DNA from: Bacteroidales bacterium
GTDB lineage: Bacteria; Bacteroidota; Bacteroidia; Bacteroidales; UBA932
Direction: 5' to 3'
Length of the DNA stretch: 64,000 nt
Assembly (NCBI GenBank): GCA_017550025.1
Contig: JAFYLU010000071.1
Coordinates: 1-64,000 of the forward strand
In this document: one piece after another, positions 45,627 through 59,235 of the stretch
Layout of the letters: every line of letters begins with the position of its first letter
Numbering within the stretch: position 1 is the first letter of the stretch
Made by a program: the position numbers and the translations under genes
The notes under the pieces: generated by a model
What the model was told of the DNA's origin: nothing
The model's input: the letters and a program-made list of their open reading frames with translations, nothing else
The model's database searches: none

Positions 45627-47492
45627 TTATTCTTCAACATTCGCTCCTGCGACTTCGTCGATTACTCTGACGCAACGAACCGAGAGTCCGTACGCACGAT
45701 TTATGTCGCACGACGGATTGACGTAGCCATTGTTTCTGAGGAGCAGGCAGTACGCAGTGCTGCTACAAGGAGAAGCAGACCAATAGTAGCCGCGGTCTCC
45801 GAAACCATAGAAAGTACCATTGTAGCCGTCGCGATAACCCAAAGCTGGATACCAGATCGTTGAGGCAGAACCGAACTTGCCGGAGAAGTTCATGCCTTTA
45901 TTAGTGCTAGAGTATGGATAGTCGCTAAAGGATAAACTTGACCCAAGAGCCTTTGACCATACACCATTGATTCCACCATCGGGAACACGCCATCCAACTG
46001 GGCATGGGTCGTAAATAGACTTTTCACAGCTTGATTCTGCCCAACGAGTATTTTCTGTTGACAACGCCGTACCGGTATAATACCAATCACCATTATTACT
46101 ATAGCTTATAAAAGTAGTTGGTTTAGCAGTAGTGTATGCTATGGTACCATTACTTGAATCTGAACGCACTGATGATGGCCAAGTGAGAGTAGATTTGGCA
46201 ACAGCGCTTGATGAAGTAGAAGACGCCCCCAAGAACGGATCCTTACGACCCCACTGATAAAGAAGGCCAAGAGCACCGACGTCGCCAGGAGTAGCAGACG
46301 TAGCACCGAGGTTACGGTCCATCATCGTTCTTCCGGCATTGTTGTAACACACCTGTCCTTCTGGTTGGTCAGTTAGCCAGATATGCCATGACCATAGAAT
46401 TTTGTTGGAAGCGTCCTTGGCAGCGATGACAGCATTACCCTCCTTGAAAGTTTCTGCGGTCTGGAAGGTGACTTCACCATTCTTGTAAGAAACATTCTTC
46501 ACCAAATCACCCACATTCGGAGTCACATCAGTGCCAAAGCTCTCCCAAAGCACCTCGGCCGATGCTACAGCACCAACCGACTCATTGCTGTTGCCCTTGA
46601 CGGTGGTGAACTTGTACGACCCGGCCGCTGAAACGATATAACTGTTTGCTGTTCCATTCTCTGAGAGATCAACCACGCCACCCTCAATGTCGCCTTCAAC
46701 GGAAGTACCCATATTGACAGCAGGCATGAGCTTCAATGTCTTGCGGCCTATCTTGTTCGTAACAGTATTGGAATATGACCATAAAGACTTGTCTCCAGCC
46801 CAAAGTTCCAGACCGAGAGTCGTATAGGTACCCACTGGAAGCGGAACATAAAGACTGATGTCTGAAACTGACTGTAATGCATCAAAGTTAAGAGTAACTG
46901 TCTTTTCTGATTCAGAAGATGCAGCCGAAGTCTCGATAACCGGCAAAGCCTCCGAAAGGTCGGCGCTAAACACGCCGCTGATCTTCTTATCAAGAGTAAG
47001 TTGGAACCTGTCTGTACCGACAGGAGCGTTCCTGAAGACGAAGCGCATCACGCCGCCGAGGTGATTGAATCTGATGGTTCCATCAACATCGACGCCATAC
47101 ATCGCGGCATTGGCGTTTGTAAGATTCGAGCCAAGATCATATGAGGCTGGCAGAACGAAGCAGAGCTCATCATCCGAAATCGAGTGGGAAGCATTATATG
47201 GATAAACCGCCTTGCCTGTCAGTTCGCCGATAAACCCACCTGTAGAAAAACTTGCGCGCGATGATCCGGCTCCGGATGAAAGGGTTCCGACAACACTTCC
47301 ATTTGTTGTCTGAAGCCACACCTGGTCACCAGCAGACCAGGAAAATACACCTCCATCGGTGACAGAAGTACGGGTCAGTTCACCTTCCATTACAGCGAGG
47401 ATTGTATGTTCTGTTACAGGAACTTCCTCGACTGCGCAACCGCCCAGGAAGAAACCTGCTGCAAGAGCATACACGGATAATAGTTTTTTCAT
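45627..47492 (-). CDS. Fimbrillin-like / FISUMP-domain lipoprotein 1
   Basis: A 621-residue surface lipoprotein. Signal with lipobox LGGC (Cys19). Residues ~25-265 form a fimbrillin (Mfa/FimA)-like region (TRTSVTDGGVFSWSAGDQVWL, FVLPASYDLGSNL, LKLMPAVNMG). Residues ~285-370 are a linking module (WSWHIWLTDQPEG). Residues ~375-615 are a FISUMP (Fibrobacter succinogenes major paralogous)-type domain (MMDRNLGATSATPGDVGALG, YQWGRKDPFLG, YDPCPVGWRVP, YYWSAS, LSVRCVRV). The FISUMP fold is C-type-lectin-like, so ligand binding is plausible. Headed by the small peptide gene at 47630-47749, with a REP-like element between. One of four paralogues here. Confidence 0.85.
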   Translation of the reverse strand: MKKLLSVYALAAGFFLGGCAVEEVPVTEHTILAVMEGELTRTSVTDGGVFSWSAGDQVWLQTTNGSVVGTLSSGAGSSRASFSTGGFIGELTGKAVYPYNASHSISDDELCFVLPASYDLGSNLTNANAAMYGVDVDGTIRFNHLGGVMRFVFRNAPVGTDRFQLTLDKKISGVFSADLSEALPVIETSAASSESEKTVTLNFDALQSVSDISLYVPLPVGTYTTLGLELWAGDKSLWSYSNTVTNKIGRKTLKLMPAVNMGTSVEGDIEGGVVDLSENGTANSYIVSAAGSYKFTTVKGNSNESVGAVASAEVLWESFGTDVTPNVGDLVKNVSYKNGEVTFQTAETFKEGNAVIAAKDASNKILWSWHIWLTDQPEGQVCYNNAGRTMMDRNLGATSATPGDVGALGLLYQWGRKDPFLGASSTSSSAVAKSTLTWPSSVRSDSSNGTIAYTTAKPTTFISYSNNGDWYYTGTALSTENTRWAESSCEKSIYDPCPVGWRVPDGGINGVWSKALGSSLSFSDYPYSSTNKGMNFSGKFGSASTIWYPALGYRDGYNGTFYGFGDRGYYWSASPCSSTAYCLLLRNNGYVNPSCDINRAYGLSVRCVRVIDEVAGANVEE

Positions 47493-47568: not shown

Positions 47569-47630
47569 AGATACCCGATCAGGTCGGGCATGACGAGAGT
47601 ATGTTGTCATTGTCGGCTCGACCGGCAATC
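47569..47630. repeat. Two-palindrome REP-like element, copy 2
   Basis: Palindrome A': ATACCCGA (47571-47578) / TCGGGCAT (47584-47591) then GACG; palindrome B': ATTGTCGG (47609-47616) / CCGGCAAT (47622-47629) then CT. It touches the stop codon of the small peptide gene and lies in the transcribed gap before lipoprotein 1, so it would form hairpins in that mRNA. Confidence 0.7.
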
Positions 47631-47749
47631 TACATGTTTCCCTCTTCCGGATCCATATCAAGATCCTGATCCAGACTGCCGCAGAGCACTCCCTCTACAT
47701 AAATCTCCATAACTTCCGCTTCCGGCGTAATGTACTCCTTACATTCCAT
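47630..47749 (-). CDS. Small conserved peptide A (39 residues)
   Basis: A 39-residue acidic peptide, MECKEYITPEAEVMEIYVEG then VLCGSLDQDLDMDPEEGNM. Two relatives occur at 52488-52604 and 57283-57393 with the same frame: Y-x-x-PExEVxE[IV], EGVLCGS, DMDPEEG-x-M and stop. All three stand directly upstream of a fimbrillin/FISUMP lipoprotein gene. There is no signal peptide or membrane segment; one invariant Cys (Cys23; a second at residue 3 here only). Promoter -7 at 47771-47778. Conservation of protein sequence with third-base changes argues for real translation. Function unknown. Confidence 0.78.
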   Translation of the reverse strand: MECKEYITPEAEVMEIYVEGVLCGSLDQDLDMDPEEGNM

Positions 47750-47770
47750 ATAGACACATATTATCACCTG

Positions 47771-47778
47771 CAAAGGTA
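47771..47778 (-). promoter_or_regulatory. Promoter -7 element of peptide A
   Basis: TACCTTTG on the minus strand, 21 nt before the peptide A start; leader only about 15 nt. Confidence 0.5.
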
Positions 47779-47903
47779 TAAAAATCCCACAATCTCATAT
47801 TGCTTTCATATCACATATTATGTTTGCCTGCTTTCAGGTACTGGAGACCCGCCAAGGTTGCACATCAATGTGACTATGCCGGCGTTTGTGGGAGGGGATA
47901 AGA

Positions 47904-47927
47904 ATGCCCGGTCATCGGGCCGGGCAT
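47904..47927. terminator. Hairpin downstream of lipoprotein 3
   Basis: ATGCCCGG (47904-47911) / CCGGGCAT (47920-47927), 39 nt past the stop of the leftward lipoprotein 3 gene. Similar to palindrome A of the REP-like elements, so it may be a solitary repeat that acts as terminator. Confidence 0.55.
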
Positions 47928-47965
47928 ATAAAGGGGCTATATCTGCAAATTATTGATGACAGACA

Positions 47966-49807
47966 TCAATATACATTACTTGATTCATCCTTGATACAAC
48001 GGACAGCCTGTGCCCTTCCGGCCTCAAACACTCCGTCATAATCCACAAAAGTGGACGAAAAGTAAAATGAATCAAACCAGGCACTGGTATTGCTTTGAGG
48101 CGCAGTCGACGTCCAATACAATCCATAGTTGAAATACTTAAATGAATCATATGAAGTCAGTTGTCCGGTATTAGGATACCAGATCTCTTTCCCTGCCCCG
48201 CTGAATTTTCTACCACATTTATCAGTGTCTGACTGATTTGTTTCTGTATGAAATTTAGCATTATGATAGAATGCCATATCCGGAACTTTCCAGCCAGATG
48301 GACAAGGGTCATAAATCGTCTTCACCTCACCCCATCTTGTATGATCTATCTGATAATAATTATCATAATAGAGCCAGTCGTTATAGTTACCTTCGGTTAT
48401 GAAGGTCATCGGATTCATAATTGAAAATTCAATAGAACCTGTCGACATATCCGAACAGCTGATGTCAAACCAAGTATTGGTGGCCTTGGCGACTTTCGGC
48501 GTATCAATGCTCGAGGACCCAAGGAAAGGGTCCTTTCTTCCCCATTCATACATGAGACCTAAAGCGCCCACTTCGCCTGGAACAGCAGAAGTAGCACCAA
48601 GATTTCTGTCCATCGTTATACCTGCATCATCAACGCAGACATATTCCTGAGGCTTGTCTGTAAGCCAGATATGCCACGACCAGAGGATTGTACCGTTCGC
48701 ATTTTTTGCCGCAATCACAGCATTACCTTCCTTAAAGTTGTCAGGAGTCTCAAAGCTGATGTATCCATCTTCATACTTCGGATTTCTGATAAGGTCACCG
48801 ACAGAAGGCACGACATCTGTTCCGAATGATTCCCAATACACCTCAACAGATGAAATGTCCGTTATAAATTTCAGGCTACTGCCTCGGGTAGGCTTGAAGC
48901 GATAAGTTCCTGCTGCCGACACTATGTACGAGTTTGCATAGCCCTCCTCTGAAAGATCCAGATCAACGGGACCATCATATTCAGAGGAATAATCCTCATC
49001 AATCTCACCGTCAACTGTTCCTCCCATATTGACTGCCGGCATAAGAATCAGACTTTTGCGGCCGACTGTATTGGTTACGGCATTTGAATATGTCCAGACT
49101 GACTGATCACCAGCCCAAAGATCAAGAGCAAGAGTTGCGTATGTTCCCAAAGGAAGCGGAACATACAATGCAATATCCGATGCTTCTGTAAGGGCATCGA
49201 AGTTCAAGGTGATCGTCTTCTCCGCAGCGACATCAGTAACTTCTGTCTGAATCACCGGATAGTCATCAGTCAGATCGGCCTTAAATATACCGTTGATCTT
49301 CTTGTCAAGGGTCAGCTGAAATCTGTCAGTTCCGGCTGGAACATTCCTGAACTTGAATCGCATGACACCGGCAAGGTGATTGAACATAATCTTTCCGTTC
49401 ATATTCTCACCATACATCGCGGCGTTCGTGTTGGACAGATCGCCCCCGAGGTCATATGAGGCCGGAAGAACCACATCAAGTTCATTTCCTGACACAGAAT
49501 GTCCGGAATTATATGGATATACAGCCTTACCTGTCATTTCACCAAAGAATGCCCCAAAGTCAAAGTTCGCACTTGCTGTACCAGCACCTGAAGAAAGCGT
49601 GCCGACAATACCTCCGGCAGTGGTATGCAGCCATACCTGATCACCAGCCGACCAAGTGAAAGAGCCTTCATCGGTTACGGAAGTACGTGTCTGGTCATTC
49701 TCCATCACAGCCTTTACGGTACCTTCTACCGAAGGAATTTCCTTAACGGCACAACTCACCGGAAACATCCCTGCAATAGCAGAAATTAAAAATAACCTGA
49801 ATTTCAT
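47966..49807 (-). CDS. Fimbrillin-like / FISUMP-domain lipoprotein 3
   Basis: A 613-residue paralogue of lipoprotein 1. Signal MKFRLFLISAIAGMFPVSC (Cys19; Pro/Val before the Cys make a weaker lipobox), fimbrillin-like region (TRTSVTDEGSFTWSAGDQVWL, VLPASYDLGGDL), linking module (WSWHIWLTDKPQE) and FISUMP domain (TMDRNLGATSAVPGEVGALG, WGRKDPFLG, YDPCPSGWKVPD, YWTSTAPQ, AVRCIKDE). Starts 40 nt after lipoprotein 2, and has no peptide gene of its own: it is the distal gene of the operon peptide B - lipoprotein 2 - lipoprotein 3. Confidence 0.85.
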   Translation of the reverse strand: MKFRLFLISAIAGMFPVSCAVKEIPSVEGTVKAVMENDQTRTSVTDEGSFTWSAGDQVWLHTTAGGIVGTLSSGAGTASANFDFGAFFGEMTGKAVYPYNSGHSVSGNELDVVLPASYDLGGDLSNTNAAMYGENMNGKIMFNHLAGVMRFKFRNVPAGTDRFQLTLDKKINGIFKADLTDDYPVIQTEVTDVAAEKTITLNFDALTEASDIALYVPLPLGTYATLALDLWAGDQSVWTYSNAVTNTVGRKSLILMPAVNMGGTVDGEIDEDYSSEYDGPVDLDLSEEGYANSYIVSAAGTYRFKPTRGSSLKFITDISSVEVYWESFGTDVVPSVGDLIRNPKYEDGYISFETPDNFKEGNAVIAAKNANGTILWSWHIWLTDKPQEYVCVDDAGITMDRNLGATSAVPGEVGALGLMYEWGRKDPFLGSSSIDTPKVAKATNTWFDISCSDMSTGSIEFSIMNPMTFITEGNYNDWLYYDNYYQIDHTRWGEVKTIYDPCPSGWKVPDMAFYHNAKFHTETNQSDTDKCGRKFSGAGKEIWYPNTGQLTSYDSFKYFNYGLYWTSTAPQSNTSAWFDSFYFSSTFVDYDGVFEAGRAQAVRCIKDESSNVY

Positions 49808-49847
49808 ATAACAATTCTTACTGATCATGCATTTATCCATCTGGCCA

Positions 49848-52472
49848 TTACTCGCGCTGACATCTTACTGAAAGGCCATCCTCAGCAATCATACTATAAT
49901 TCACCCCATATGCATATGAGGCATCACCCGTCTGAGCAAATCGAGCACACATAAAGCCAGCATTCCATTGATTGTAACTTGAGCATGTCCACGTTCCGCT
50001 CCATATATCAGAGGACTGAATCTGACCGGTGTCGCCATCAATGCATCCTGTAAACGGATACCAGATAGAATAATAGTCTCCAAGCAGGTTGTCAGAGTCA
50101 GTAATGTAACCGTAGTCACCACCTGTCCAATGTGACGTTATTGCATCATTATAATATTCAGTTGTTGTATCCTGCGACCAGCCCCATGCATTTTTCCATA
50201 CGTTCATTGATGGAAGCTTCCATCCTGCCGGACATGGATCATAGATAGTCTTGGTGCTTCCCCAACGGGAAGATTCGCTGGATTTTTCTCCGGTATAATA
50301 CCAATCGTTATTGTACGAATTACCTTTTATGAAAGTCGTCGGATTTGCTATAGTGTATTCTATAGTTCCGGTTGTGGATGTAGACGTTACAGGTGACGGC
50401 CAGCTATATGTCGATGCTGCCATTGTCGTACCTGCAACCTTTCCGGACGCAAGGAAAGGATCCTTTCTTCCCCATTGATATAGCAATCCCAACGAGTACA
50501 CCGACGCTCTTGAACAACTGGTGGCTCCCAGATTCCTGTCCATCATCTCCTTGGTATTGTTATAATACAATTGTCCTAAAGGCTGGTCAGTAAGCCATAT
50601 ATGCCATGACCATAGAATTGTTCCGTCAGCATCCTTTGCAGCGATTAATGCATTTCCCGCCTTAAATGTCTCCGGAGTCTCAAAACAGATCATTTCACCA
50701 TCATATCTTGCATTTCTGACAAGAGAGCCAGCCTCTGGAGCAGTATTCGTACCGAAGGTTTCCCACAAAACTTCAACAGAAGCGATAGTTCCTACAGACT
50801 CGTCGCTATTACCCTTTGTCGGCCTGAAGCTATATGTTCCTGATTCGGATACCATATAGCAATTTGCCGTTTCCTCTGATGACGGGTCAGAGGATTCCGG
50901 AGGAGTTACCTCTTGCTGAAAATCACGGACACAACGTACAGTGGCTCCTGTTGCGCGACCCAGATTGTCGATAGTGATCTTACTGTTGCTGATTTCAAAG
51001 CCATAAGTATATCCTGTATCCTCTTTGCCATCAACACACGGTTTTGAGGACCACAGAACAGCCGCGCAACCACGATCATAGAAATATCCGTTGTCACCAA
51101 TCGTACCTGCAGCCGGAACAAATATCTGAGGAGGTCTGCTTTCATTGTAAGCCTTTGAGCCACAAAGCCAATACCCTTCCTGATCTGATGCATTTGTCGT
51201 CCAAGAAGACCTATTCTGAACCAATTTCTTTAATTCAGAAAATGTCGGAACACGCCAACCTTCAGGGCATGGATCATATTCTGTCTTGACCGGATCTGTA
51301 TCTGTTCCTGAATTCCACAATTGAGCGTCATCTACAGACAGCCAGTTCCAGTTCGTTAAGCCGGTAGCCGTATAGAACAGATTTGAATTTTCTGAACTCT
51401 GGGCATTTGACAATGTCGTCGGCCCACTGACAACTGTCGCGGATGTGGCGTCCGAATATGTTCCCGTTTCATTGCCATCAGTGTAAAAACCACCATTATA
51501 TCCCTGTCCATACTTTCTTCCCCACTGATAGAGTTTACCGTACTTATAGTCAGAAACATGATATCCGCAATTGACCGGAGCCCATACAACACCGTCAATT
51601 TCCACTCCGGGACCATGATTTATGCCATACTCATCAATATACACTTCGGCATCCTCACCACTTTCAATATCACCATTCACCGAACCAGACATGGTTACAG
51701 CCGGCATCAGCTTCAGAGTCCTGAGGCCGATAGTATTGGTAACAGTATTGGAGTATTCCCACAGGGTCTCCTCATCGGCATACAGACCTATACCCAGTGT
51801 AGTATAAGTTCCCACCGGGAGCGGAACATACAGCTTGATGTCAGAGACTTCCTTCAAGGCGTCGAAGTTGAATGTAACTGTTTTCTCCGAAGCCACATCT
51901 GTAGATTCGGTCGAAAGAACAGGAAAATCTGCTGTCAGATCTGCAGTAAATGTACCGTTGATCTTCTTGTCAAGAGTAATCACAAAACGGTTTGCCCCTG
52001 CAGGGACATTCTTGAGGACGAAGCGCATAATGCCGGCAAGATGGCGGAACCTTATGACACCGCTTTTGCTCTCGCCGTACATTGCAGCGTTAGTGTTGGA
52101 CAGATTTGAACCAAGATCATACGATGCAGGGAGAACGAAATGGAGCAAATCTCCCGACAAGGAATGGTCGGCATTATAAGGATATATGGCCTTACCCGTC
52201 ATATCCCCGAAGAACACTCCGTAAGTAAAGCTTGCACTTGATGTGCCTTCGCCAGAGGAAAGAGTTCCGACAACACCTCCGGTTGTAGTATGAAGCCACA
52301 CCTTATCTCCTGATGACCAGGTGAAGCTTCCCCCATCACTAACCGACGTACGAGTGTCATCATTCTCTATCACAGCTGTGACAGACCCCGTTCCCATCGA
52401 AGTTTCCTCAAAAGCGCAGCTGCCGAATAACAGCACTGTCGCCGCTAAAGATGAAAAGAATCGGAATTTCAT
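49848..52472 (-). CDS. Fimbrillin-like lipoprotein 2 with two FISUMP-type domains
   Basis: An 874-residue paralogue. Signal MKFRFFSSLAATVLLFGSC (Cys19), fimbrillin-like region (TRTSVSDGGSFTWSSGDKVWL), then a first FISUMP-type domain not present in the other paralogues (~290-520: VVWAPVNCGYHVSDYKYGKL, CPEGWRVPTFSEL, VLWSSKPC, ATVRCVRD). It continues with the linking module (WSWHIWLTDQPLG) and a second FISUMP domain (MMDRNLGATSCSRASVYSLG, WGRKDPFL, CPAGWKLPSMN, LSVRCQRE). The extra domain looks like an insertion between fimbrillin-like and linking parts. Starts 15 nt after peptide B. Confidence 0.85.
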   Translation of the reverse strand: MKFRFFSSLAATVLLFGSCAFEETSMGTGSVTAVIENDDTRTSVSDGGSFTWSSGDKVWLHTTTGGVVGTLSSGEGTSSASFTYGVFFGDMTGKAIYPYNADHSLSGDLLHFVLPASYDLGSNLSNTNAAMYGESKSGVIRFRHLAGIMRFVLKNVPAGANRFVITLDKKINGTFTADLTADFPVLSTESTDVASEKTVTFNFDALKEVSDIKLYVPLPVGTYTTLGIGLYADEETLWEYSNTVTNTIGLRTLKLMPAVTMSGSVNGDIESGEDAEVYIDEYGINHGPGVEIDGVVWAPVNCGYHVSDYKYGKLYQWGRKYGQGYNGGFYTDGNETGTYSDATSATVVSGPTTLSNAQSSENSNLFYTATGLTNWNWLSVDDAQLWNSGTDTDPVKTEYDPCPEGWRVPTFSELKKLVQNRSSWTTNASDQEGYWLCGSKAYNESRPPQIFVPAAGTIGDNGYFYDRGCAAVLWSSKPCVDGKEDTGYTYGFEISNSKITIDNLGRATGATVRCVRDFQQEVTPPESSDPSSEETANCYMVSESGTYSFRPTKGNSDESVGTIASVEVLWETFGTNTAPEAGSLVRNARYDGEMICFETPETFKAGNALIAAKDADGTILWSWHIWLTDQPLGQLYYNNTKEMMDRNLGATSCSRASVYSLGLLYQWGRKDPFLASGKVAGTTMAASTYSWPSPVTSTSTTGTIEYTIANPTTFIKGNSYNNDWYYTGEKSSESSRWGSTKTIYDPCPAGWKLPSMNVWKNAWGWSQDTTTEYYNDAITSHWTGGDYGYITDSDNLLGDYYSIWYPFTGCIDGDTGQIQSSDIWSGTWTCSSYNQWNAGFMCARFAQTGDASYAYGVNYSMIAEDGLSVRCQRE

Positions 52473-52487
52473 ATAACCAAGCATTTA

Positions 52488-52604
52488 TTACATTTGTCCC
52501 TCTTCCGGATCCATATCAAGATCTGAACTTCCGCAAAGAACACCTTCGGGAAAAACATCCAGAACCTCTGTTTCCGGACTATGATAATTCTGTGTCGATT
52601 CCAT
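52488..52604 (-). CDS. Small conserved peptide B (38 residues)
   Basis: Starts MESTQNYHSPETEVLDVFPE, then GVLCGSSDLDMDPEEGQM. Shares the core EGVLCGS and DMDPEEG with peptides A and C; one Cys (Cys24). It ends 15 nt before lipoprotein 2, which probably depends on it for translation. The promoter candidate at 52728-52735 leaves a ~115-nt leader. Function unknown; net strongly acidic, no export signal. Confidence 0.78.
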   Translation of the reverse strand: MESTQNYHSPETEVLDVFPEGVLCGSSDLDMDPEEGQM

Positions 52605-52727
52605 ATGTTTAATTTAATAAGATCGCAGCCTCAACGAATCTGATCAGACAGCCATGCGAAAGTGTGAAGCCAACCTGGCATTCGTGCAAAAGGCACATTC
52701 ATCCAGGACACTTTCATATTTATCCGC

Positions 52728-52735
52728 AAATGTAC
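52728..52735 (-). promoter_or_regulatory. Promoter -7 element of the peptide B operon
   Basis: TACATTTG on the minus strand matches TAnnTTTG; about 115 nt of leader before the peptide B start. Confidence 0.45.
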
Positions 52736-53048
52736 CATTTTCCTTTTAAAAGTGATTAAAAGATAAGAAACATTGACAGTTCATATGAGAGAAATACTGC
52801 GGATGCGATCCTTTCCTCTGCAAGAGCGCTTTAGACAATGTCAAACTCTATCGTTCGGATAAACGAAGAGACACTATGGCAGGTATTCCCCGGTGGGCAA
52901 GCCTCTGTCTTTTAAAACTGTCAAACCGCTATAGACTTCCTCCGCAGGCATCAGTGCAGATACTATAGGAAGGCAGATGCATACACTGATTTACCCGGTC
53001 AAGAGCTTTATTTGAGTTACAATTTATCGGATTTAGTGATTTTTATTA

Positions 53049-53056
53049 TAATTTTG
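53049..53056 (+). promoter_or_regulatory. Promoter -7 element of the DUF1295 gene
   Basis: TAATTTTG, an exact TAnnTTTG match, 64 nt before the ATG at 53121. Confidence 0.5.
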
Positions 53057-53120
53057 CCACACTTGACCGGATGAACCTATGCCAACATTGCATATTATTA
53101 ATCACTAAATAAAGAACATT

Positions 53121-53924
53121 ATGAATTATTTGTTGATTCTTCTCGCTGTTTCGATGGCGGTTTCAGGACTCGGATGGATATATTTCATCTATTTCTTCAG
53201 CCTTGGATATGGATTTGGTGTATCTGCATTAGCAGTAACGATAGCTATCCTTTTCAAAGATGTAATCACTTTGCCAACAGCACTTTTATGTGCCGTGATG
53301 TTCATTTTCGGATGCAGGCTCGGACTATATCTCCTTACACGTGAGAAAATGTCTCCTGAATATAAGAAGATTCTATATGGACCGGACGCAGCAAAGAAGA
53401 AGCCGCTGTTTGTTGTGATTACAGTATGGATTTTCTGCGCATTGCTCTATGTAGGTCAGGTCAGCCCTGTGGCATTTTTCCTTGCAAACAAATCAGCAGG
53501 TGCCCCTGTAAATGAGGTATGGGCATGGATCGGCGCCGGTCTGATGGCTGTCGGAGTCATTCTTGAAAGCGTTGCAGACGCACAGAAAAAAGCAGCAAAG
53601 AAGATAAACAAGCACAGATTTGTAGACACTGGAGTGTACAGGCTGGTACGTTGCCCGAATTATCTTGGCGAACTTGTCATATGGACAGGATCATTTATCG
53701 TATGTTTCGGAGCATGCTGTGCCGTATGGCAGTGGATCATTGCAGCAATAGGATACATCGGAATCGTATATGTGATGTTCAGCGGAGCCCGCAGACTTGA
53801 AATCCGTCAGAACGGAGCCTACGGAAGCGACCCTGAATATCAGGCATACATAAAGAAAACCCCTATCCTTCTCCCATTCGTTCCGATCTACAGCGTAGAG
53901 AAGCATAAGTGGCTGCAGGCATAA
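53121..53924 (+). CDS. DUF1295 (steroid 5-alpha-reductase-like) membrane protein
   Basis: A 267-residue protein with about seven transmembrane helices. The C-terminal part has the signature of the DUF1295/isoprenylcysteine methyltransferase-like group: KHRFVDTGVYRLVRCPNYLGE followed by helices and SGARRLEIRQNGAYGSDPEYQAYIKKTP. Substrate unknown; lipid or steroid-like reductase or methyltransferase activity is inferred only from the family. Monocistronic, with its own terminator. Confidence 0.85.
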   Translation: MNYLLILLAVSMAVSGLGWIYFIYFFSLGYGFGVSALAVTIAILFKDVITLPTALLCAVMFIFGCRLGLYLLTREKMSPEYKKILYGPDAAKKKPLFVVITVWIFCALLYVGQVSPVAFFLANKSAGAPVNEVWAWIGAGLMAVGVILESVADAQKKAAKKINKHRFVDTGVYRLVRCPNYLGELVIWTGSFIVCFGACCAVWQWIIAAIGYIGIVYVMFSGARRLEIRQNGAYGSDPEYQAYIKKTPILLPFVPIYSVEKHKWLQA

Positions 53925-53960
53925 AGCGGAAACAGATCCTTATTTCTGACATATTACATC

Positions 53961-53998
53961 AAGGGCCGGTATTATATTTTACCGACCCTTGATTTTTT
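53961..53998 (+). terminator. Rho-independent terminator of the DUF1295 gene
   Basis: AAGGGCCGGTA (53961-53971) pairs with TACCGACCCTT (53980-53990; one mismatch) and is followed by GATTTTTT. Confidence 0.88.
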
Positions 53999-54037
53999 AT
54001 GGCATGCACTGCTGCAGACCTTAAGCTGACAGTCGGA

Positions 54038-54295
54038 TCATCTTACCGTTATCTTGTCTTTCGGAACAAAATAATACCTTACGACATCAACGGCGAGTTT
54101 CGGACTGCCGGCAATGACATGATCGGCCCTTCGAAGGGCACGACGGAGCCTGTGGTGCTTATAATGCCTTCTGAACCATCCGTATCGGTGGACACGGTCG
54201 CTGATGAAACTCAAATCATTCACCTCGACGACCTTTCCTGTTATCTTATATTCTTTGTTCTTCTTCACGATCATGTGGTTTTCCAGCTCCCTCAT
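54038..54295 (-). pseudogene. Possible fragment of a group 1 glycosyltransferase
   Basis: An 85-residue leftward reading frame with YKHHRLRRALRRADHVIAGS then PKLAVDVVRYYFVPKDKITV. This matches the linker after the N-terminal domain of GT4-type glycosyltransferases (…ADxIIAxSxxTxxDLxxxxxVPxxKIxVI). Such enzymes are ~370 residues; the N-terminal domain and the nucleotide-binding domain are missing, so this is either a decayed remnant or a chance frame. Confidence 0.35.
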
Positions 54296-54338
54296 GCAGA
54301 AATCCGGGGATGCCGCTGATTGTTTATGCAAATTTAAC

Positions 54339-54346
54339 TATTTTTG
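54339..54346 (+). promoter_or_regulatory. Promoter -7 element of the PAP2 gene
   Basis: TATTTTTG, 13 nt before the ATG at 54360. Confidence 0.5.
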
Positions 54347-54359
54347 CGATGCTGCAAAA

Positions 54360-55463
54360 ATGAAACATCGCCTTAAATATATCACCGCCTTTCTGATCCT
54401 GCTCTTCCATATGGCAGGAGCAGGATGCGCGCATGCACAGTTCACAGTCGGTTTCGACAGCGACATCCATTCGGTCAGAAATTCCATAATACCGGATTTC
54501 AGATACAAATATGATGATTATCTGCAGTATGCCCCAGCTGCCCTGATGGTCGGAATGAAGGTCGGAGGCTACGAAAGCCGCAGCTCATGGGGAAGGATGC
54601 TCGTTTCAGACGCGTTTTCCGTAGCGATCATGACAGCCACCGTCAACGGACTGAAATATACCGTAGGCCGCCCGAGGCCGGACGGAAGCCGCAACAACTC
54701 ATTCCCTTCAGGTCACACAGCAACAGCATTCACCACAGCCACGCTGCTGCACAAGGAATACGGATGGCGAAGCCCATGGTTCAGCATCGGAGGATATACG
54801 GCAGCAGCTGTCACGGGATTCTCGAGAATTATGAACAACAAGCACTGGATGACCGACGTGATGGCCGGGGCGGCAATAGGAATAGGATCCGTACACCTGG
54901 GATACTTCATCGCAGACAAGATATTCAGAGACAGAGGATTATACGGAATGTTCACGGATCCGACATACCAGTACGACCCATATCGGAAGCATTATGTGGC
55001 GGAACTTTTCTTAGGAAGGAGATTCATCATCGGGGCAGAAGGAATGAAGGAGATGGGAGTGCTGCCGCTTCGCGGAGGCATAGTGGGCCTGTCGACCGAT
55101 ATACCGATAAAGCCCGGACTTGGTGTTACAGCCCGGGCATCAGCAAGTTCCATGACATATTATTCAGGAACGATATCTCCTATGTACAGCCTCACAGCCG
55201 GAGGATACTGGAACTTCCATTTCGCAAGGATAATGGAGCTTCAGTTACGTGTAATGGCAGGAGGGGCATGGATGGAAAATCCATCTCAAGGTCACGCAGC
55301 CGATTTCGGTACTGACCTGTCCGGCGGCATCGCCCTCAGCATCATCACCGACTCCAATTTCAAGATCAAGGGATTCGTCGACCTCGAATCAGTCAGCCTC
55401 TCCCCTGACCGTCCATGGATCAACACCCTCATCGTAGGATGGAGCTCCGCATGGTTCTGGTAG
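54360..55463 (+). CDS. PAP2-superfamily phosphatase with C-terminal barrel-like region
   Basis: A 367-residue exported protein. Signal peptide (MKHRLKYITAFLILLFHMAG, cleaved near AHAQ). The PAP2 acid phosphatase motifs are complete: KYTVGRPRP, NSFPSGHTATAF and SRIMNNKHWMTD. Residues ~230-367 are beta-rich with alternating aromatics and a terminal Trp-Phe-Trp, suggesting an outer-membrane domain, as in some Bacteroidetes lipid phosphatases. Substrate unknown; lipid A or undecaprenyl phosphates are reasonable guesses. Start at 54360 chosen for signal peptide and promoter. Confidence 0.85.
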   Translation: MKHRLKYITAFLILLFHMAGAGCAHAQFTVGFDSDIHSVRNSIIPDFRYKYDDYLQYAPAALMVGMKVGGYESRSSWGRMLVSDAFSVAIMTATVNGLKYTVGRPRPDGSRNNSFPSGHTATAFTTATLLHKEYGWRSPWFSIGGYTAAAVTGFSRIMNNKHWMTDVMAGAAIGIGSVHLGYFIADKIFRDRGLYGMFTDPTYQYDPYRKHYVAELFLGRRFIIGAEGMKEMGVLPLRGGIVGLSTDIPIKPGLGVTARASASSMTYYSGTISPMYSLTAGGYWNFHFARIMELQLRVMAGGAWMENPSQGHAADFGTDLSGGIALSIITDSNFKIKGFVDLESVSLSPDRPWINTLIVGWSSAWFW

Positions 55464-55465
55464 GC

Positions 55466-55891
55466 CTATACGACTTTTACCTTGAAGATAGCCTTGTGGA
55501 TAGAGCCCTCTCCGATGAGCGGAGCATGCGCCATATCAGGAGCGAAGGTAACGATCTCGCCAGCCTCGGCAGAAACGGTTTCCTCAATCGGATCATCGAA
55601 AAAGATGATGTCATCGGCAAGATTCATCTCACCCACAGGCATAGTGCACTCCGAACGAGGCTTCACGCCGTAGGTTTCTCCCTTCGAAAGAGGTACCTGA
55701 ACATCGATATATACATCATGAGCCTCAAGCTTGGCCTGCTCCACAGACCTGAGTCCGGCATCAACGATGTTAACGAACAGATTTTCACCGTCGATGATAT
55801 GTCTGCCATTAGCAAGAGAATTAAGGTCATGGGTCTTGATATACTCGATTGCCTTGGCATAATTGGGGTTTGTCATCAGTTTCTCGTCCAT
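55466..55891 (-). CDS. YhcH/YjgK/YiaL family protein
   Basis: A 141-residue cupin-like protein: NGRHIIDGENLFVNIVDAGL, EAHDVYIDVQVPLSKGET (metal-binding His/Glu region) and FFDDPIEETVSAEAGEIVTF, FAPDMAHAPLIGEG, HKAIFKVKV. Family members act in sugar-acid or N-acetylneuraminate catabolism (anomerase-like). No sugar genes are adjacent. Convergent with the PAP2 gene, 2 nt apart. Confidence 0.88.
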   Translation of the reverse strand: MDEKLMTNPNYAKAIEYIKTHDLNSLANGRHIIDGENLFVNIVDAGLRSVEQAKLEAHDVYIDVQVPLSKGETYGVKPRSECTMPVGEMNLADDIIFFDDPIEETVSAEAGEIVTFAPDMAHAPLIGEGSIHKAIFKVKVV

Positions 55892-55916
55892 AAAAAAATG
55901 CGGTTACAACAATTTA

Positions 55917-55950
55917 TTTGCGCTAAGTTAAGAAAATTGACTTATCTTTG
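55917..55950 (+). promoter_or_regulatory. Promoter of tRNA-Leu
   Basis: TTTG (55917-55920), 22-nt spacer, TATCTTTG (55943-55950); the mature tRNA begins 10 nt later. Confidence 0.65.
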
Positions 55951-55960
55951 CAACCTCATC

Positions 55961-56330
55961 GCTCTGGTGGTGGAATAGGTAGACACGCGGGACTTAAACG
56001 AGGCCACACGAAAAACGGCCTCACTGAGTGCCTCAAAGGAAACTTTGAGAGTAGAACTCCCCTAACAAACGGAAACCTCGCCCGCAGAAATGCAGGCTTT
56101 GGCGACGGCTCACTAAATTCAGCACATGCTGATAAATGGCGTAGAGACTATACAGGGAGGACCTAAACGCAGAACGGACAGTGCAACAGCACATCCAGCG
56201 CATGGTCAAGAAATAGTCCAGACTACAACGGCTGAACATTTCGGATGAAGCCGGCTTGCGTAAAAGCAAGAGTAGCAAGAAAATCCCGTGGCCAGAAATG
56301 GCCGTACGGGTTCGATTCCCGTCCGGAGCA
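55961..56330 (+). tRNA. tRNA-Leu(UAA) interrupted by a group I intron
   Basis: Exon 1 (55961-55995) starts with the acceptor strand GCTCTGG and the leucine-type D-arm GTGGAATAGGTAGACAC, and ends CGGGACTT. Exon 2 (56280-56330) starts AAAATCCCG, has a class II variable arm (TGGCCAGAAATGGCCGTA), the T-loop GGTTCGATTCC and closes with CCGGAGCA. Joining them gives anticodon stem CGGGA/TCCCG, loop CTTAAAA and anticodon UAA. CCA is not encoded. A good promoter precedes and a terminator follows. The 3' end (from 56309) is repeated at 63483, marking it as an integration site. Confidence 0.93.
55996..56279 (+). ncRNA. Group I intron (IC3-like) in the tRNA-Leu anticodon loop
   Basis: A 284-nt insert after U34, with U before the 5' splice site and G as last base (56279), the hallmarks of group I introns. 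Elements: P1, exon CUU pairing with GAGUGCC (56026-56032, U-G at the splice site), extended by GAGGCC/GGCCTC; P2, CTCAAAG-GAAA-CTTTGAG (56032-56049); P3, CTCCC (56057-56061) with GGGAG (56155-56159); P7, GACTAT (56146-56151) with ATAGTC (56213-56218) inside the conserved GTAGAGACTA and AATAGTCCAG; P8, GGACC/GGTC; P9 hairpins (CTTGC/GCAAG). No homing endonuclease ORF. The core resembles the Azoarcus/cyanobacterial tRNA introns. Confidence 0.9.
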
Positions 56331-56373
56331 CATGATCCCTCTTGGAAATTCCGAGAGGGATTTTTGTTTTTGT
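56309..56373 (+). repeat. Left attachment-site repeat
   Basis: 65 bp comprising the T-arm, acceptor end and terminator of tRNA-Leu; the copy that keeps the tRNA intact. Confidence 0.82.
56335..56372 (+). terminator. Rho-independent terminator of tRNA-Leu
   Basis: ATCCCTCT (56335-56342) / AGAGGGAT (56354-56361) followed by a T-rich run. The identical hairpin recurs at the right repeat (63509-63547). Confidence 0.9.
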
Positions 56374-56424
56374 GACCGTGCTTTGGCACAAGTAGGATAT
56401 CTTTACCGTTAAAAACACCTATAT

Positions 56425-56892
56425 ATGGCAAACAAACGGACAAAAGAAGAATTTGAAATCGCGGCCGCACATTCATATAGCATCGCGGGAATGTGCCGGT
56501 ATCTAGGACTCATTCCAAGCGGAGGAAATTACCGGATAATACATAATGCTATACGAAAATATTCTATAGATACCAGACATTTCACAGGACAAGGATGGAA
56601 CATCGGCTTGGCATTCAAGCCTTTTGAAGCCAAATCGACAAATAAGATTCTTACGACTGATTCCACATATCAATCATTCAAACTAAAAGCACGATTAATC
56701 CAAGAAGGTATCAAAAAGCATATCTGCGAACAATGCAGACTGACTCAGTGGCAGGGAAGACCGATACCCTTGGAGCTACATCATATAAATGGCAACAACA
56801 CCGACAACCGTCTGGAGAACATTCTGCTTCTTTGCCCGAACTGCCATGCCCTTACTGAAAGTTACAGGGGCAAGAACAAGAAGACTAAATAA
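56425..56892 (+). CDS. HNH endonuclease
   Basis: A 155-residue protein with an N-terminal HTH-like segment (EFEIAAAHSYSIAGMCRYLGL) and a C-terminal HNH nuclease with zinc site: Cys101/Cys104 (HICEQC), the HNH core LELHHINGNNTDNRLENILL (His119-His120, Asn residues) and Cys137/Cys140 (LLCPNCHAL). Such small HNH proteins are carried by phages and islands, often as homing or packaging-type nucleases. First gene of the island, 50 nt past the left repeat. Confidence 0.85.
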   Translation: MANKRTKEEFEIAAAHSYSIAGMCRYLGLIPSGGNYRIIHNAIRKYSIDTRHFTGQGWNIGLAFKPFEAKSTNKILTTDSTYQSFKLKARLIQEGIKKHICEQCRLTQWQGRPIPLELHHINGNNTDNRLENILLLCPNCHALTESYRGKNKKTK

Positions 56893-57282
56893 GACAATAA
56901 CAACTTTGACCATATTACGCAATACCCCAGTGAGTGTTGTCCGTTTATAAAAACTTTTTCTTACCTTTGTAAGGTCTCGCGGTTGTCCGCTTGACATTAC
57001 ATATTTGTGAAAGTGTTTTTCGCAAGTCCTTTTCTGAAAATGTGGAAGTTTTCTTGATCATAAGGGCGGAACGGAACAACACTCACTTTCGTATAGATAC
57101 CTGTGGCAGGTCGCGTTCTGCGTACCCGTACCCCATATCTATTCGAGTGTGGGGTATTGTGTCGTCTATCTATGATCAGGGTCTTTCCACAACCTTCAGA
57201 AGGATAAACGAAAGTCAGCTCCACACTTTCTTTGTATATACACCATAATCATCTTTGGAGTTGAGGATGTTTATCCAGAAAA
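56893..57282 (+). promoter_or_regulatory. Long leader region of peptide C
   Basis: 390 nt without a convincing gene. A promoter -7 TACCTTTG at 56962-56969 would give a leader of about 305 nt. Paired elements: AGTGAGTGTTGT (56931-56942) with ACAACACTCACT (57078-57089), spanning the promoter; TACCCCA/TGGGGTA (about 57128-57157) as a hairpin; and GATCAT/ATGATC segments. Possible regulatory RNA or DNA-binding sites; unproven. Confidence 0.45.
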
Positions 57283-57393
57283 ATGGAATCAATACAGAAT
57301 TATTTAGCACCAGAGGTAGAAGTAATGGAAATTGTGCCGGAAGGTGTTCTATGTGGCAGTATGGATATGGATCCAGAAGAAGGTTATATGTAA
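57283..57393 (+). CDS. Small conserved peptide C (36 residues)
   Basis: MESIQNYLAPEVEVMEIVPE then GVLCGSMDMDPEEGYM. It has the same start (MESxQNY) as peptide B and the shared EGVLCGS and DMDPEEG cores, with the region between them shortened by two or three residues. Codon choice differs widely from A and B while protein is kept, supporting translation. It ends 18 nt before lipoprotein 4. Carried on the island. Confidence 0.78.
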   Translation: MESIQNYLAPEVEVMEIVPEGVLCGSMDMDPEEGYM

Positions 57394-57411
57394 TCAATAA
57401 AACTTAACAAT

Positions 57412-59235
57412 ATGAAATTTAGATTATTTACAATTTTTGCAGCTGTTGGACTATTGTTTACTGGCTGTGCAGAGAAATCATATCCGATAGTAGACGGTTC
57501 CATTATTGCAATAATGGAAAATGACGAAACCCGTACATCTGTTACGGACGACGGTATCTTCACTTGGTCTAGTAATGACCGGGTATGGCTTCACACGACA
57601 AACGGAGGTATAGTCGGAACGCTTTCTTCTGGTGCAGGTACACCTAATGCCTGCTTTTCTTATGGGGTATTTATTGGAGACATGACTGGTAAAGGAGTTT
57701 ATCCATATAATGATAGCCACTCCATATCAGACAATAAACTAAGTTTTGTTCTTCCTGCATCATACGACCTTGGCTCTGACTTGACTAATAACAATGCAGC
57801 TATGTATGGCGTTAATGTTGGTGGAACAGTCTGGTTCAACCATCTTGCTGGCGTTATGCGATTCAAGTTCCAGAATGTCCCAGCAGGTACGGACAGGTTT
57901 CAGCTTACTCTTGACAAAAAGATTAACGGAACATTTACTGCCGACCTTTCTGAAGTCATACCTGTTATTGAGACATCTGATGCATCTTCGGAGTCCGAGA
58001 AAACAGTTACTTTGAATTTTGATGCCTTGAAGTCTGTTTCGGACATCTATCTTTACGTCCCACTCCCTGTTGGCACATATACAACCCTTGGCATAGACCT
58101 CTGGGCAGGCAACAAATCTATATGGTCATATTCAAATACTGTAACGAATAAGATAAGCCGTAAGACATTAAAACTCATGCCAAACATTAACCTTGGCGGT
58201 TCTGTCAATGGCGACCTTGAGGGAAGTGTAACCAATCTCTCTAAAAACTTCACCGCAAACTGTTATATCGTCTCTGAAGCAGGTTCATACAAATTTACTC
58301 CTACTAAAGGCAATAGCGGCGAATCTGTCGGTTCTATATCATCTGCAGAAGTTCTTTGGGAAAGTTTCGGTACAGATGAGACTCCGAATGTGGGTGACCT
58401 AGTGAAAAATGTGAAGTATGTGGATGGTGTCATCAGTTTTGAAACTCCGAGTACATTCAAGGAAGGTAATGCTGTGATTGCAGCTAAGGAAGCTTCTGGT
58501 AATATTCTTTGGTCATGGCATATCTGGCTTACCGACCAGCCTGAAGGTCAAGTATATTATAACAATGCAGGCACTATGATGGATCGCAACCTTGGCGCAA
58601 CTTCGGCAACTCCCGGAGATGTTGGTGCTCTCGGACTGCTTTATCAGTGGGGGCGCAAGGATCCGTTCTTGGGCTCTTCTTCAATTTCATCGGATATTGT
58701 TGCAAAATCCACCATCACTTGGCCTTCAGCTGTCAGTTCTAATGCAAACAATGGTACAATAACCTATGCTACTGCTAACCCTGCGACTTTCATTACTTAC
58801 AATAACAGTAATCAAGATTGGTATTACACTGGCTCATCATCTACAGACAATACTCGTTGGTCTGAATCAAGCAACGCAAAGTCCATTTATGACCCATGTC
58901 CAGTTGGCTATCGTGTTCCGAATGGTGGCAACAATGGAGTCTGGCGTAAGGCTAATGAATATTTGAATTTTAATGGGTTTGACGAGTCTAATAAAGGTAT
59001 GAACTTCTCTGGAAAATTCGGCCCAACCTCTACAATCTGGTATCCGGCTTCGGGTCTTCGTGATGGCATTGATGTCAGTCCCATCCATGTTGGCAAGCAA
59101 GGCACTTATTGGTCTGTTGCATCCGACAATCTATATCTAGGTCAGTATATGGAATTCTATAATAGTGAGCATGTTTTTTTAACTGGCAATACATCTCGCG
59201 CTTACGCATTATCTGTCCGTTGTATCCAAGAATAA
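57412..59235 (+). CDS. Fimbrillin-like / FISUMP-domain lipoprotein 4 (island copy)
   Basis: A 607-residue paralogue nearest in layout to lipoprotein 1. Signal MKFRLFTIFAAVGLLFTGC (Cys19), fimbrillin-like region (TRTSVTDDGIFTWSSNDRVWL, FVLPASYDLGSDL, LKLMPNINLG), linking module (WSWHIWLTDQPEGQVYYNNAG) and FISUMP domain (MMDRNLGATSATPGDVGALG, WGRKDPFLG, YDPCPVGYRVPNGG, YWSVAS, LSVRCIQE). Codon use is clearly more A/T-rich than in the three chromosomal paralogues, so it has a separate history. Forms a two-gene unit with peptide C. Confidence 0.86.
   Translation: MKFRLFTIFAAVGLLFTGCAEKSYPIVDGSIIAIMENDETRTSVTDDGIFTWSSNDRVWLHTTNGGIVGTLSSGAGTPNACFSYGVFIGDMTGKGVYPYNDSHSISDNKLSFVLPASYDLGSDLTNNNAAMYGVNVGGTVWFNHLAGVMRFKFQNVPAGTDRFQLTLDKKINGTFTADLSEVIPVIETSDASSESEKTVTLNFDALKSVSDIYLYVPLPVGTYTTLGIDLWAGNKSIWSYSNTVTNKISRKTLKLMPNINLGGSVNGDLEGSVTNLSKNFTANCYIVSEAGSYKFTPTKGNSGESVGSISSAEVLWESFGTDETPNVGDLVKNVKYVDGVISFETPSTFKEGNAVIAAKEASGNILWSWHIWLTDQPEGQVYYNNAGTMMDRNLGATSATPGDVGALGLLYQWGRKDPFLGSSSISSDIVAKSTITWPSAVSSNANNGTITYATANPATFITYNNSNQDWYYTGSSSTDNTRWSESSNAKSIYDPCPVGYRVPNGGNNGVWRKANEYLNFNGFDESNKGMNFSGKFGPTSTIWYPASGLRDGIDVSPIHVGKQGTYWSVASDNLYLGQYMEFYNSEHVFLTGNTSRAYALSVRCIQE

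Follow-up and report, generated by a model that had tools for sequence, protein, structure and literature searches.

Short peptides at the head of lipoprotein operons

Why should operons for predicted surface lipoproteins begin with a gene for a tiny peptide? This question is raised by 64,000 nucleotides from a Bacteroidales bacterium (GCA_017550025.1, contig JAFYLU010000071.1, positions 1 to 64,000; this whole stretch is called the window), in which three short open reading frames (ORFs) with related translations each lie upstream of a fimbrillin-like lipoprotein gene:

47630..47749, minus strand: short peptide 1, 39 amino acids, a member of the three-peptide profile described below
52488..52604, minus strand: short peptide 2, 38 amino acids, heading the middle operon
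57283..57393, plus strand: short peptide 3, 36 amino acids, with the leader motif YLAPEV, the element EGVLCGS and an acidic tail

We consider it probable that these peptides are precursors of the RiPP type (ribosomally synthesized and post-translationally modified peptides), matured in trans by a PqqD protein, an HPr-kinase-like protein and an ATP-binding cassette (ABC) exporter encoded on another contig, and that they partner the adhesin operons, one to each. A preliminary description of the locus had listed four options (coupling leader, chaperone, modified-peptide precursor and regulator) without choosing among them. The evidence favors the modified-peptide precursor, because the peptides carry a lasso-type YxxP leader and co-occur, and in part are physically linked, with PqqD, HPr-kinase-like and ABC genes.

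The positions and common motifs given in that description hold: the three peptides are identical at 22 residues, among them Y and P of Y-x-x-P, EGVLCGS and DMDPEEG. None of them carries an export signal. EGVLC as a lipobox or sortase-type signal was ruled out, since no hydrophobic stretch precedes it. The nucleotide differences had been called mostly silent, which fails as a general count: silent and replacement differences in the three pairwise comparisons are 11.2/19.8, 19.0/16.0 and 14.4/15.6, so that replacements match or outnumber silent changes in some pairs. The underlying point, that the protein is kept, stands. The per-site ratios of replacement to silent differences (pN/pS) of 0.40, 0.19 and 0.26 are low and support purifying selection on the peptide; the value near 1 that had been named as speaking against it was not observed.

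A peptide family across the order

A profile of the three window peptides, which are themselves its rows, found one more copy in the same genome, at 9.6e-12, and additional ones between 1e-5 and 2e-4; because of these matches we regard the family as more than a chance resemblance. A wider profile brings the number of intact copies in the genome to nine; besides these, a contig end truncates one copy (C8) and another is decayed (C104). Our searches drew on samples of 61, 392 and 60 genomes, several of which are incomplete metagenome-assembled genomes; the genome of the window is 83.5% complete. At E<=0.01, the seven-row profile A2 was positive in 22 of the 37 genomes that represent the genus. 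It gave 25 matches in the related genome G032, where the wider profile A3 gave 34 at E<=1 and 31 at E<=0.003 (a count that includes one identical pair on two contigs). The order-wide profile A6, made for divergent members, was positive in 30 of 392 genomes at E<=0.001, and these span 16 families of the order, the window's own family counted. A protein search with the family returned 793 proteins at E<=1, of which the best 120 were listed. A few relatives have been deposited under the label hypothetical protein, one source being Dysgonomonas sp. 511. These genus-wide, order-wide and protein searches bear out the suggestion, unverified in the preliminary description, that other short proteins of Bacteroidales share the pattern Y-x-x-P...(L)CxS. 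Scanning 89 peptides against Pfam and NCBIfam produced only chance-type matches, with one or two members each and no precursor family, and the peptide profile found chance matches only in the PDB. Two matches were dropped as non-peptides (G033:C1, with an internal stop, and G039, within a DNA polymerase III-like ORF), together with three duplicate loci.

Y-x-x-P is present in 170 of 171 distinct peptides and served as the anchor for all residue counts (n=170, the single peptide that lacks it being dropped). The N-terminal, or leader, half is conserved and the C-terminal tail varies in length and sequence. The tails are acidic and aromatic-ended, with an aromatic residue among the last three positions in 117/170 (57 expected), and they differ by the type of the adjoining lipoprotein. 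The cysteine that the preliminary description called invariant is so in the close group; in the wider family it occurs in 83/170 peptides and is otherwise mostly L or A. A chemistry that depends on an invariant Cys was ruled out, as this residue is replaced in half of the family.

Some variants deserve mention on their own account. A sub-group (L297, L312, L318, L326 and L329) has E-I-S-L-x-M-x-S or a similar sequence in place of EGVLCxS; it belongs to other families of the order and has no lipoprotein directly behind the peptide. The decayed copy (L012, G000:C104) has stop codons inside, and a fimbrillin-like gene near it contains an internal TAG. At L150 (G254:C10), a single ORF reads as an in-frame YxxP peptide, a lipobox and an exported part; this is one case, either a natural fusion or an artefact, and we give it no weight as evidence. 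The genome concerned, G254, has a kinase match at E 2e-99.

A leader with lasso-type spacing

YxxP is listed in PMC12710340 among the motifs bound by RiPP recognition elements (RREs), to which PqqD-type proteins belong; PMC10368454 places the lasso leader motif YxxPxL at positions -17 to -12. Y-x-x-P in 170/171 peptides is a known RRE recognition motif in the leader.

With Tyr set as -17, as in lasso leaders, a serine falls 19 residues after Tyr, at core position 3, in 116/170 peptides (shuffled mean 13.9, maximum 23); since this Ser is part of the profiles by which the peptides were collected, the shuffle test measures its position and not its independence. Core position 3 is Ser in 84/92 peptides of the own genome and genus and in 32/78 of the wider set, where Ser stands one residue later in 46/78, mainly in family f53. 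V or I occupies position -2 in 74/170 peptides, including all three of the window. The kinase BsfK phosphorylates Ser3 of the lasso precursor BsfA, which has Ile at -2.

A putative maturation set in the same genome and its linkage to the peptides

Contig C33 of the same genome encodes the following set:

C33:4900-5166, minus strand: PqqD, matching PF05402 above the cut-off
C33:7540-8562, plus strand: HPr-kinase-like gene with the motif H-G-G-G-K-S-D-D
from C33:8618, plus strand: ABC exporter

Two sugar-nucleotide-type genes lie between in this stretch. The modeled structure of the C33 PqqD has the winged-helix RRE fold, and its six best Foldseek matches in the PDB are TbiB1 and TfuB1 (TM 0.70-0.77, E 3e-4 to 1e-3), all six being entries of lasso B1 proteins solved with leader peptides. 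A 20-row PqqD profile searched against the PDB also retrieved lasso B1 and PqqD-family proteins, with TfuB1 at 4e-7; the PDB search with the single own sequence found no match. H-G-G-G-K-S-D-D is the catalytic motif of BsfK according to PMC10368454. This motif is present in all 13 rows of the kinase profile A7 (with Ala at the first Gly in L340) and in the own-genome kinase, the last spacing being mostly two residues longer than in BsfK.

An RRE and genes for tailoring and export are in the genome, and in some members they cluster with the precursor. The peptide gene sits between PqqD and HPr-kinase-like genes in G122 (L326), where a gene with a weak S24 match and one of ABC type come next. 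In G054 (L301), it is followed by a kinase, an S24-like gene, PqqD, NTP_transf_5 and an ABC transporter; in G242 (L267, L369), by a lipoprotein, kinase, signal-peptidase-like gene, PqqD, NTP_transf_5 and an ABC gene. Peptide and lipoprotein lie behind an NTP-transferase-like gene and a kinase in G371 (L384), and G143 has peptide and kinase within 5 kb. The peptide also stands beside machinery genes at L309. Several of these labels were given by eye: those of the ABC genes in L326, L267/L369 and L309, of the S24-like gene of L301, of the NTP-transferase gene of L384 and of both sugar-nucleotide genes on C33.

Within 5 kb of a kinase lie 6 of 89 peptides, with 0.30 expected (P 7e-7), and at 10 kb it is the same 6/89 with 0.59 expected (P 4e-5). 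At E<1e-20 the kinase was found in 56/392 genomes, namely in 28/30 peptide-positive vs 28/362 other genomes (P 6e-25), in a test that counts genomes sharing ancestry and may partly reflect shared lineage. At E<1e-55 the numbers are 22/30 and 9/362; weaker matches, down to 1e-5, occur in 36 more genomes. Counted by family, the kinase is present in 15/16 peptide-positive vs 12/96 other families (P 2e-10; the total of 112 families is assumed from the highest number listed). PqqD was found in 52/60 chosen genomes and, within the genus, in 21/22 peptide-positive vs 10/15 peptide-negative genomes (P 0.03).

Could these be true lasso peptides, in which core residue 1, after leader removal, is joined to an acidic residue at position 7-9? 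The YxxP leader, a PqqD nearest to lasso B1, and a kinase and nucleotidyltransferase as in lasso clusters would fit, as would C or A at core position 1 in 115/170 peptides. PMC10368454 and PMC7533575 describe lasso clusters that contain both an HPr-type kinase and a nucleotidyltransferase. However, Asp or Glu is not enriched at core positions 7-9 (70/168; other triplets 61 to 88). Lasso peptides also need a cyclase of the Asn synthase type and a B2 peptidase. In 99 proteins around PqqD and kinase (the C33 PqqD and 98 of 147 ORFs around the kinase), Pfam recognizes 54 families, and the 25 of these that were listed include neither an Asn synthase nor a lasso peptidase, whole genomes not having been searched; none of the other 29 families has more than one member. 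A PqqD does stand beside an Asn synthase in G013, but the best peptide match in that genome has E 0.04. With neither a cyclase nor a lasso peptidase seen close to the kinase, and with no enrichment of ring-forming acids, we regard true lasso peptides as doubtful and this explanation as quite unlikely. The G013 locus (L333, G013:C1), where a PqqD gene of the lasso_PqqD_Bac type adjoins the Asn synthase gene, is a possible true lasso cluster in the same genus.

Beyond the shared ancestry of the genomes counted, several observations weigh against precursors matured by this set. In the own genome, the peptides are not adjacent to the machinery, and no S24-type peptidase was found in the stretches read. 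NTP_transf_5 matches occur in 19/31 genomes, with none in the own genome or in the peptide-richest genome G032. The kinase owes its label to its profile and motif and to HprK model matches that are weak and below the cut-offs; the own-genome copy matches no Pfam kinase family, and 3 of the 13 rows of A7 come from peptide-linked loci. Peptides were not found in 28/56 kinase-positive genomes, and 2/30 peptide-positive genomes have no kinase. The leader departs from the lasso pattern in places: family f53 has Ser at Y+20 in 28/31 and at Y+19 in 2/31 peptides, position -2 is G or P in 57/170, and the position of lasso L(-12) holds V, I or F in only 107/170 and A, T and V in the window peptides. 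Among 76 downstream proteins, Pfam finds Mfa_like_1 in 5/76 only. Finally, it is only gene order that suggests a link between the peptide and the function of the lipoprotein.

Neighboring genes for predicted surface proteins

The lipoprotein genes of the window are arranged as follows:

45627..47492, minus strand: fimbrillin-like/FISUMP lipoprotein (621 amino acids) after peptide 1
49848..52484, minus strand: fimbrillin-like/FISUMP lipoprotein (878 amino acids) after peptide 2
47966..49840, minus strand: second fimbrillin-like lipoprotein (624 amino acids) of the same middle operon, without a peptide of its own
57412..59235, plus strand: fimbrillin-like lipoprotein (607 amino acids) after peptide 3, with a modeled type V pilin fold and a weak C-terminal FISUMP match

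As the preliminary description said, each peptide directly precedes a lipoprotein of one paralogous family, of which the 624-residue protein is a fourth member, placed second in the middle operon. The gaps are 137 nucleotides to the 621-residue protein, 3 or 15, depending on the chosen start, to the 878-residue protein, and 18 to the 607-residue protein. Of the label fimbrillin/FISUMP, the second half rests on weak matches below curated cut-offs; a fimbrillin-like fold is present in the one protein modeled. The N-terminal domain of this 607-residue protein (residues about 22-271), which has a lipobox, adopts a type V pilin fold in its model. A model of the whole protein is confident only for about residues 50-255 and has 300 residues below a predicted local distance difference test score of 50. 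We treat the downstream lipoproteins as one group because of a shared alignment and this structure model. The resemblance to type V pilins and tip or anchor proteins (BACOVA_04980, Mfa2, Mfa3 and FimA) concerns the neighboring lipoprotein and not the peptide. Behind the pilin-like module follow variable parts (CotH, BACON, GLUG, FISUMP and others), each in few members: in the same 76 proteins, Pfam recognizes BACON in five and CotH, GLUG, F5/8, M64 and others in one to three each.

Across the genus, a lipobox protein, called by a strict rule of our own, follows 75/84 peptides vs 39/216 other ORFs of the same loci (P 3e-31); the 84 are the 89 non-own loci fetched minus three duplicates and two false matches. 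In 74 of these 75 cases, the gap is within -7 to 39 nucleotides (median 13). A lack of homologues beside such lipoproteins, which the preliminary description would have taken as refutation, did not occur. The remaining nine cases comprise three lipoproteins recognized by eye, an MlaE-like permease (L060), a contig end (L115) and four that are unclear (L096, L099, L130 and L135). At L060 (G024:C53), a typical peptide stands directly upstream of the permease, assigned by eye, with no lipoprotein. In the wider set (78 of 82 non-own loci fetched), a lipobox protein is next in 53 and another four were recognized by eye (57/78), 4/78 have no downstream ORF on the contig and 17/78 no lipoprotein next; the four other loci, all of G356, precede lipoproteins.

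We read 18 cases individually, the 17 and L315. In 10/18 the peptide begins 10 to 74 nucleotides behind a large gene on the same strand, and most of these ten genes have C-termini resembling those of type IX secretion system (T9SS) substrates by eye, Pfam confirming L258 of the three given. In the own genome, a fimbrillin-like gene ends 36 nucleotides before the C34 copy starts, and what follows the C98 copy is a gene for a short exported protein unlike fimbrillins. In reverse, among 92 fimbrillin-like matches in G032 and G016, 67 are at E<1e-15, and 34/67 have a peptide match just upstream; 12 of the 33/67 without one sit behind another such gene on the same strand.

This arrangement invites the idea that the peptide is a dedicated intracellular chaperone or targeting factor for the adjoining surface lipoprotein or secreted adhesin. 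Such a role would suit a peptide that has no export signal, whose tail differs between lipoprotein types, and which mostly lies beside a large exported protein, with a fimbrillin-like lipoprotein behind or, in other families, a T9SS-like-tailed gene in front. It would leave YxxP and the association with PqqD, kinase and exporter unexplained, and the 33/67 strong fimbrillin-like matches without an upstream peptide match in the two genomes also speak against it. We consider it very unlikely.

Predicted promoters, 5' leaders and a possible tRNA nearby

Upstream of the peptides are these predicted elements:

56962..56969, plus strand: TAnnTTTG element, predicted promoter of peptide 3
52727..52734, minus strand: TAnnTTTG element, predicted promoter of peptide 2
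47771..47778, minus strand: TAnnTTTG element, predicted promoter of peptide 1
57009..57230, plus strand: long hairpin-rich 5' leader of peptide 3 with a GAAAGTG...CACTTTC stem

We take TAnnTTTG to be the Bacteroides-type -7 box; three are found in the three 400-nucleotide upstream stretches, with 0.7 expected in all. Positions 56985-57260, which span the 5' leader of peptide 3, fold with a z of -3.95. This leader is common, whole or in part, to three peptide loci of the own genome (window 57009-57230, L013 421-775 and L011 8289-8560); one copy is without the middle part, and the lipoproteins downstream are of different types. Peptide 2, too, is preceded by a hairpin, recognized by eye, which is shorter but has the same stem of GAAAGTG/CACTTTC. 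The shared leader has no Rfam match; Rfam found nothing at the gathering threshold in the window and, at E<=1 in 55900-57420, only a chance-level match to a tmRNA T-arm.

These features raise the alternative that the short ORF is a cis-acting leader, its translation coupled to the lipoprotein gene or pausing for it, and its peptide without a life of its own. A median gap of 13 nucleotides, the predicted promoter upstream and the structured 5' leader of some copies agree with this alternative. Yet the conserved half of the peptide is N-terminal and the C-terminal end varies in length and sequence, some members sit after and not before the surface gene, and the co-occurrence with PqqD and kinase would stay unexplained. 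We judge it unlikely. In arrest peptides, the C-terminal end is nearest to the catalytic center of the ribosome. An arrest peptide was ruled out, since its active end would be the one that varies.

Elsewhere in this region, window positions 55960-56330 resemble by eye a tRNA-Leu (UAA) split at the anticodon by an insert of about 260 nucleotides that may be a group I intron. For this candidate, ARAGORN gives no tRNA and Rfam only the chance-level T-arm match. An HNH-type ORF (56425-56892) follows directly.

Proposed mechanism and relation to known systems

How might precursors matured in trans serve the adhesin operons? Transcription would start before the peptide gene, and peptide and lipoprotein would be translated together. 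The Y-x-x-P half may attach to PqqD as an extra beta strand, with the Ser then offered to the kinase, which would phosphorylate it at the position matching core residue 3 of BsfA. A peptidase of the S24/S26 type would then cut after the leader, near the Ser, the ABC exporter would release the acidic, aromatic-ended tail, and the processed tail could act at the cell surface with the co-encoded lipoprotein. Beyond gene order and tail composition, we infer every one of these steps. One shared machine, encoded elsewhere in the genome, is the likely agent of modification and export, so that every adhesin would come with a processed peptide of its own. Tentatively, and as a possibility rather than an expectation, we propose that in Bacteroidales one PqqD/HPr-kinase/S24/exporter set acts on dozens of YxxP precursors from scattered genes and turns them into phosphorylated peptides of a non-lasso kind. 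Each of these would be the dedicated ligand, cap or tether of the type V pilin-like lipoprotein or T9SS adhesin next to it.

In its parts, this scheme is similar to RiPP logic already known. Closest are the phosphorylated lasso clusters (bsf of Bradymonas and the paeninodin type), which share the YxxP leader, V or I at -2 and Ser3 with many of the peptides, as well as a discrete PqqD-type RRE, a kinase with H-G-G-G-K-S-D-D and, in many genomes here, a nucleotidyltransferase and ABC exporter. In contrast to these clusters, no cyclase or lasso B2 was seen nearby and an S24/S26-like peptidase gene is present instead; the precursors are numerous and dispersed, most of them with an adhesin-type gene as partner, and acids are not enriched at the ring position. 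The kinase and PqqD also match the NCBIfam models of SynChlorMet (ScmC, HprK-like, and ScmD, PqqD-like), weakly and far below curated cut-offs. The Bacteroidales GG-leader/C39-exporter RiPP clusters (PMC10352776) come from the same order and have leader-core precursors, but those precursors carry GG motifs and use peptidase-containing ABC transporters (PCATs) as exporters. In the text of PMC10352776, 'PqqD' occurs a single time, whereas 'HPr', 'S24' and 'fimbrill' are absent; the check did not extend to YxxP. In the open-licence PMC literature, we found neither dozens of scattered precursors mostly paired with an adhesin-type operon, nor modified peptides tied to surface adhesins, nor a precursor assigned to the PqqD/HPr-kinase-like/exporter cluster.

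If the proposal is true, it would provide a substrate for this cluster, which is found across Bacteroidales, and would add hundreds of unannotated precursor peptides to a dominant gut order. It would also tie post-translationally modified peptides to surface adhesins.

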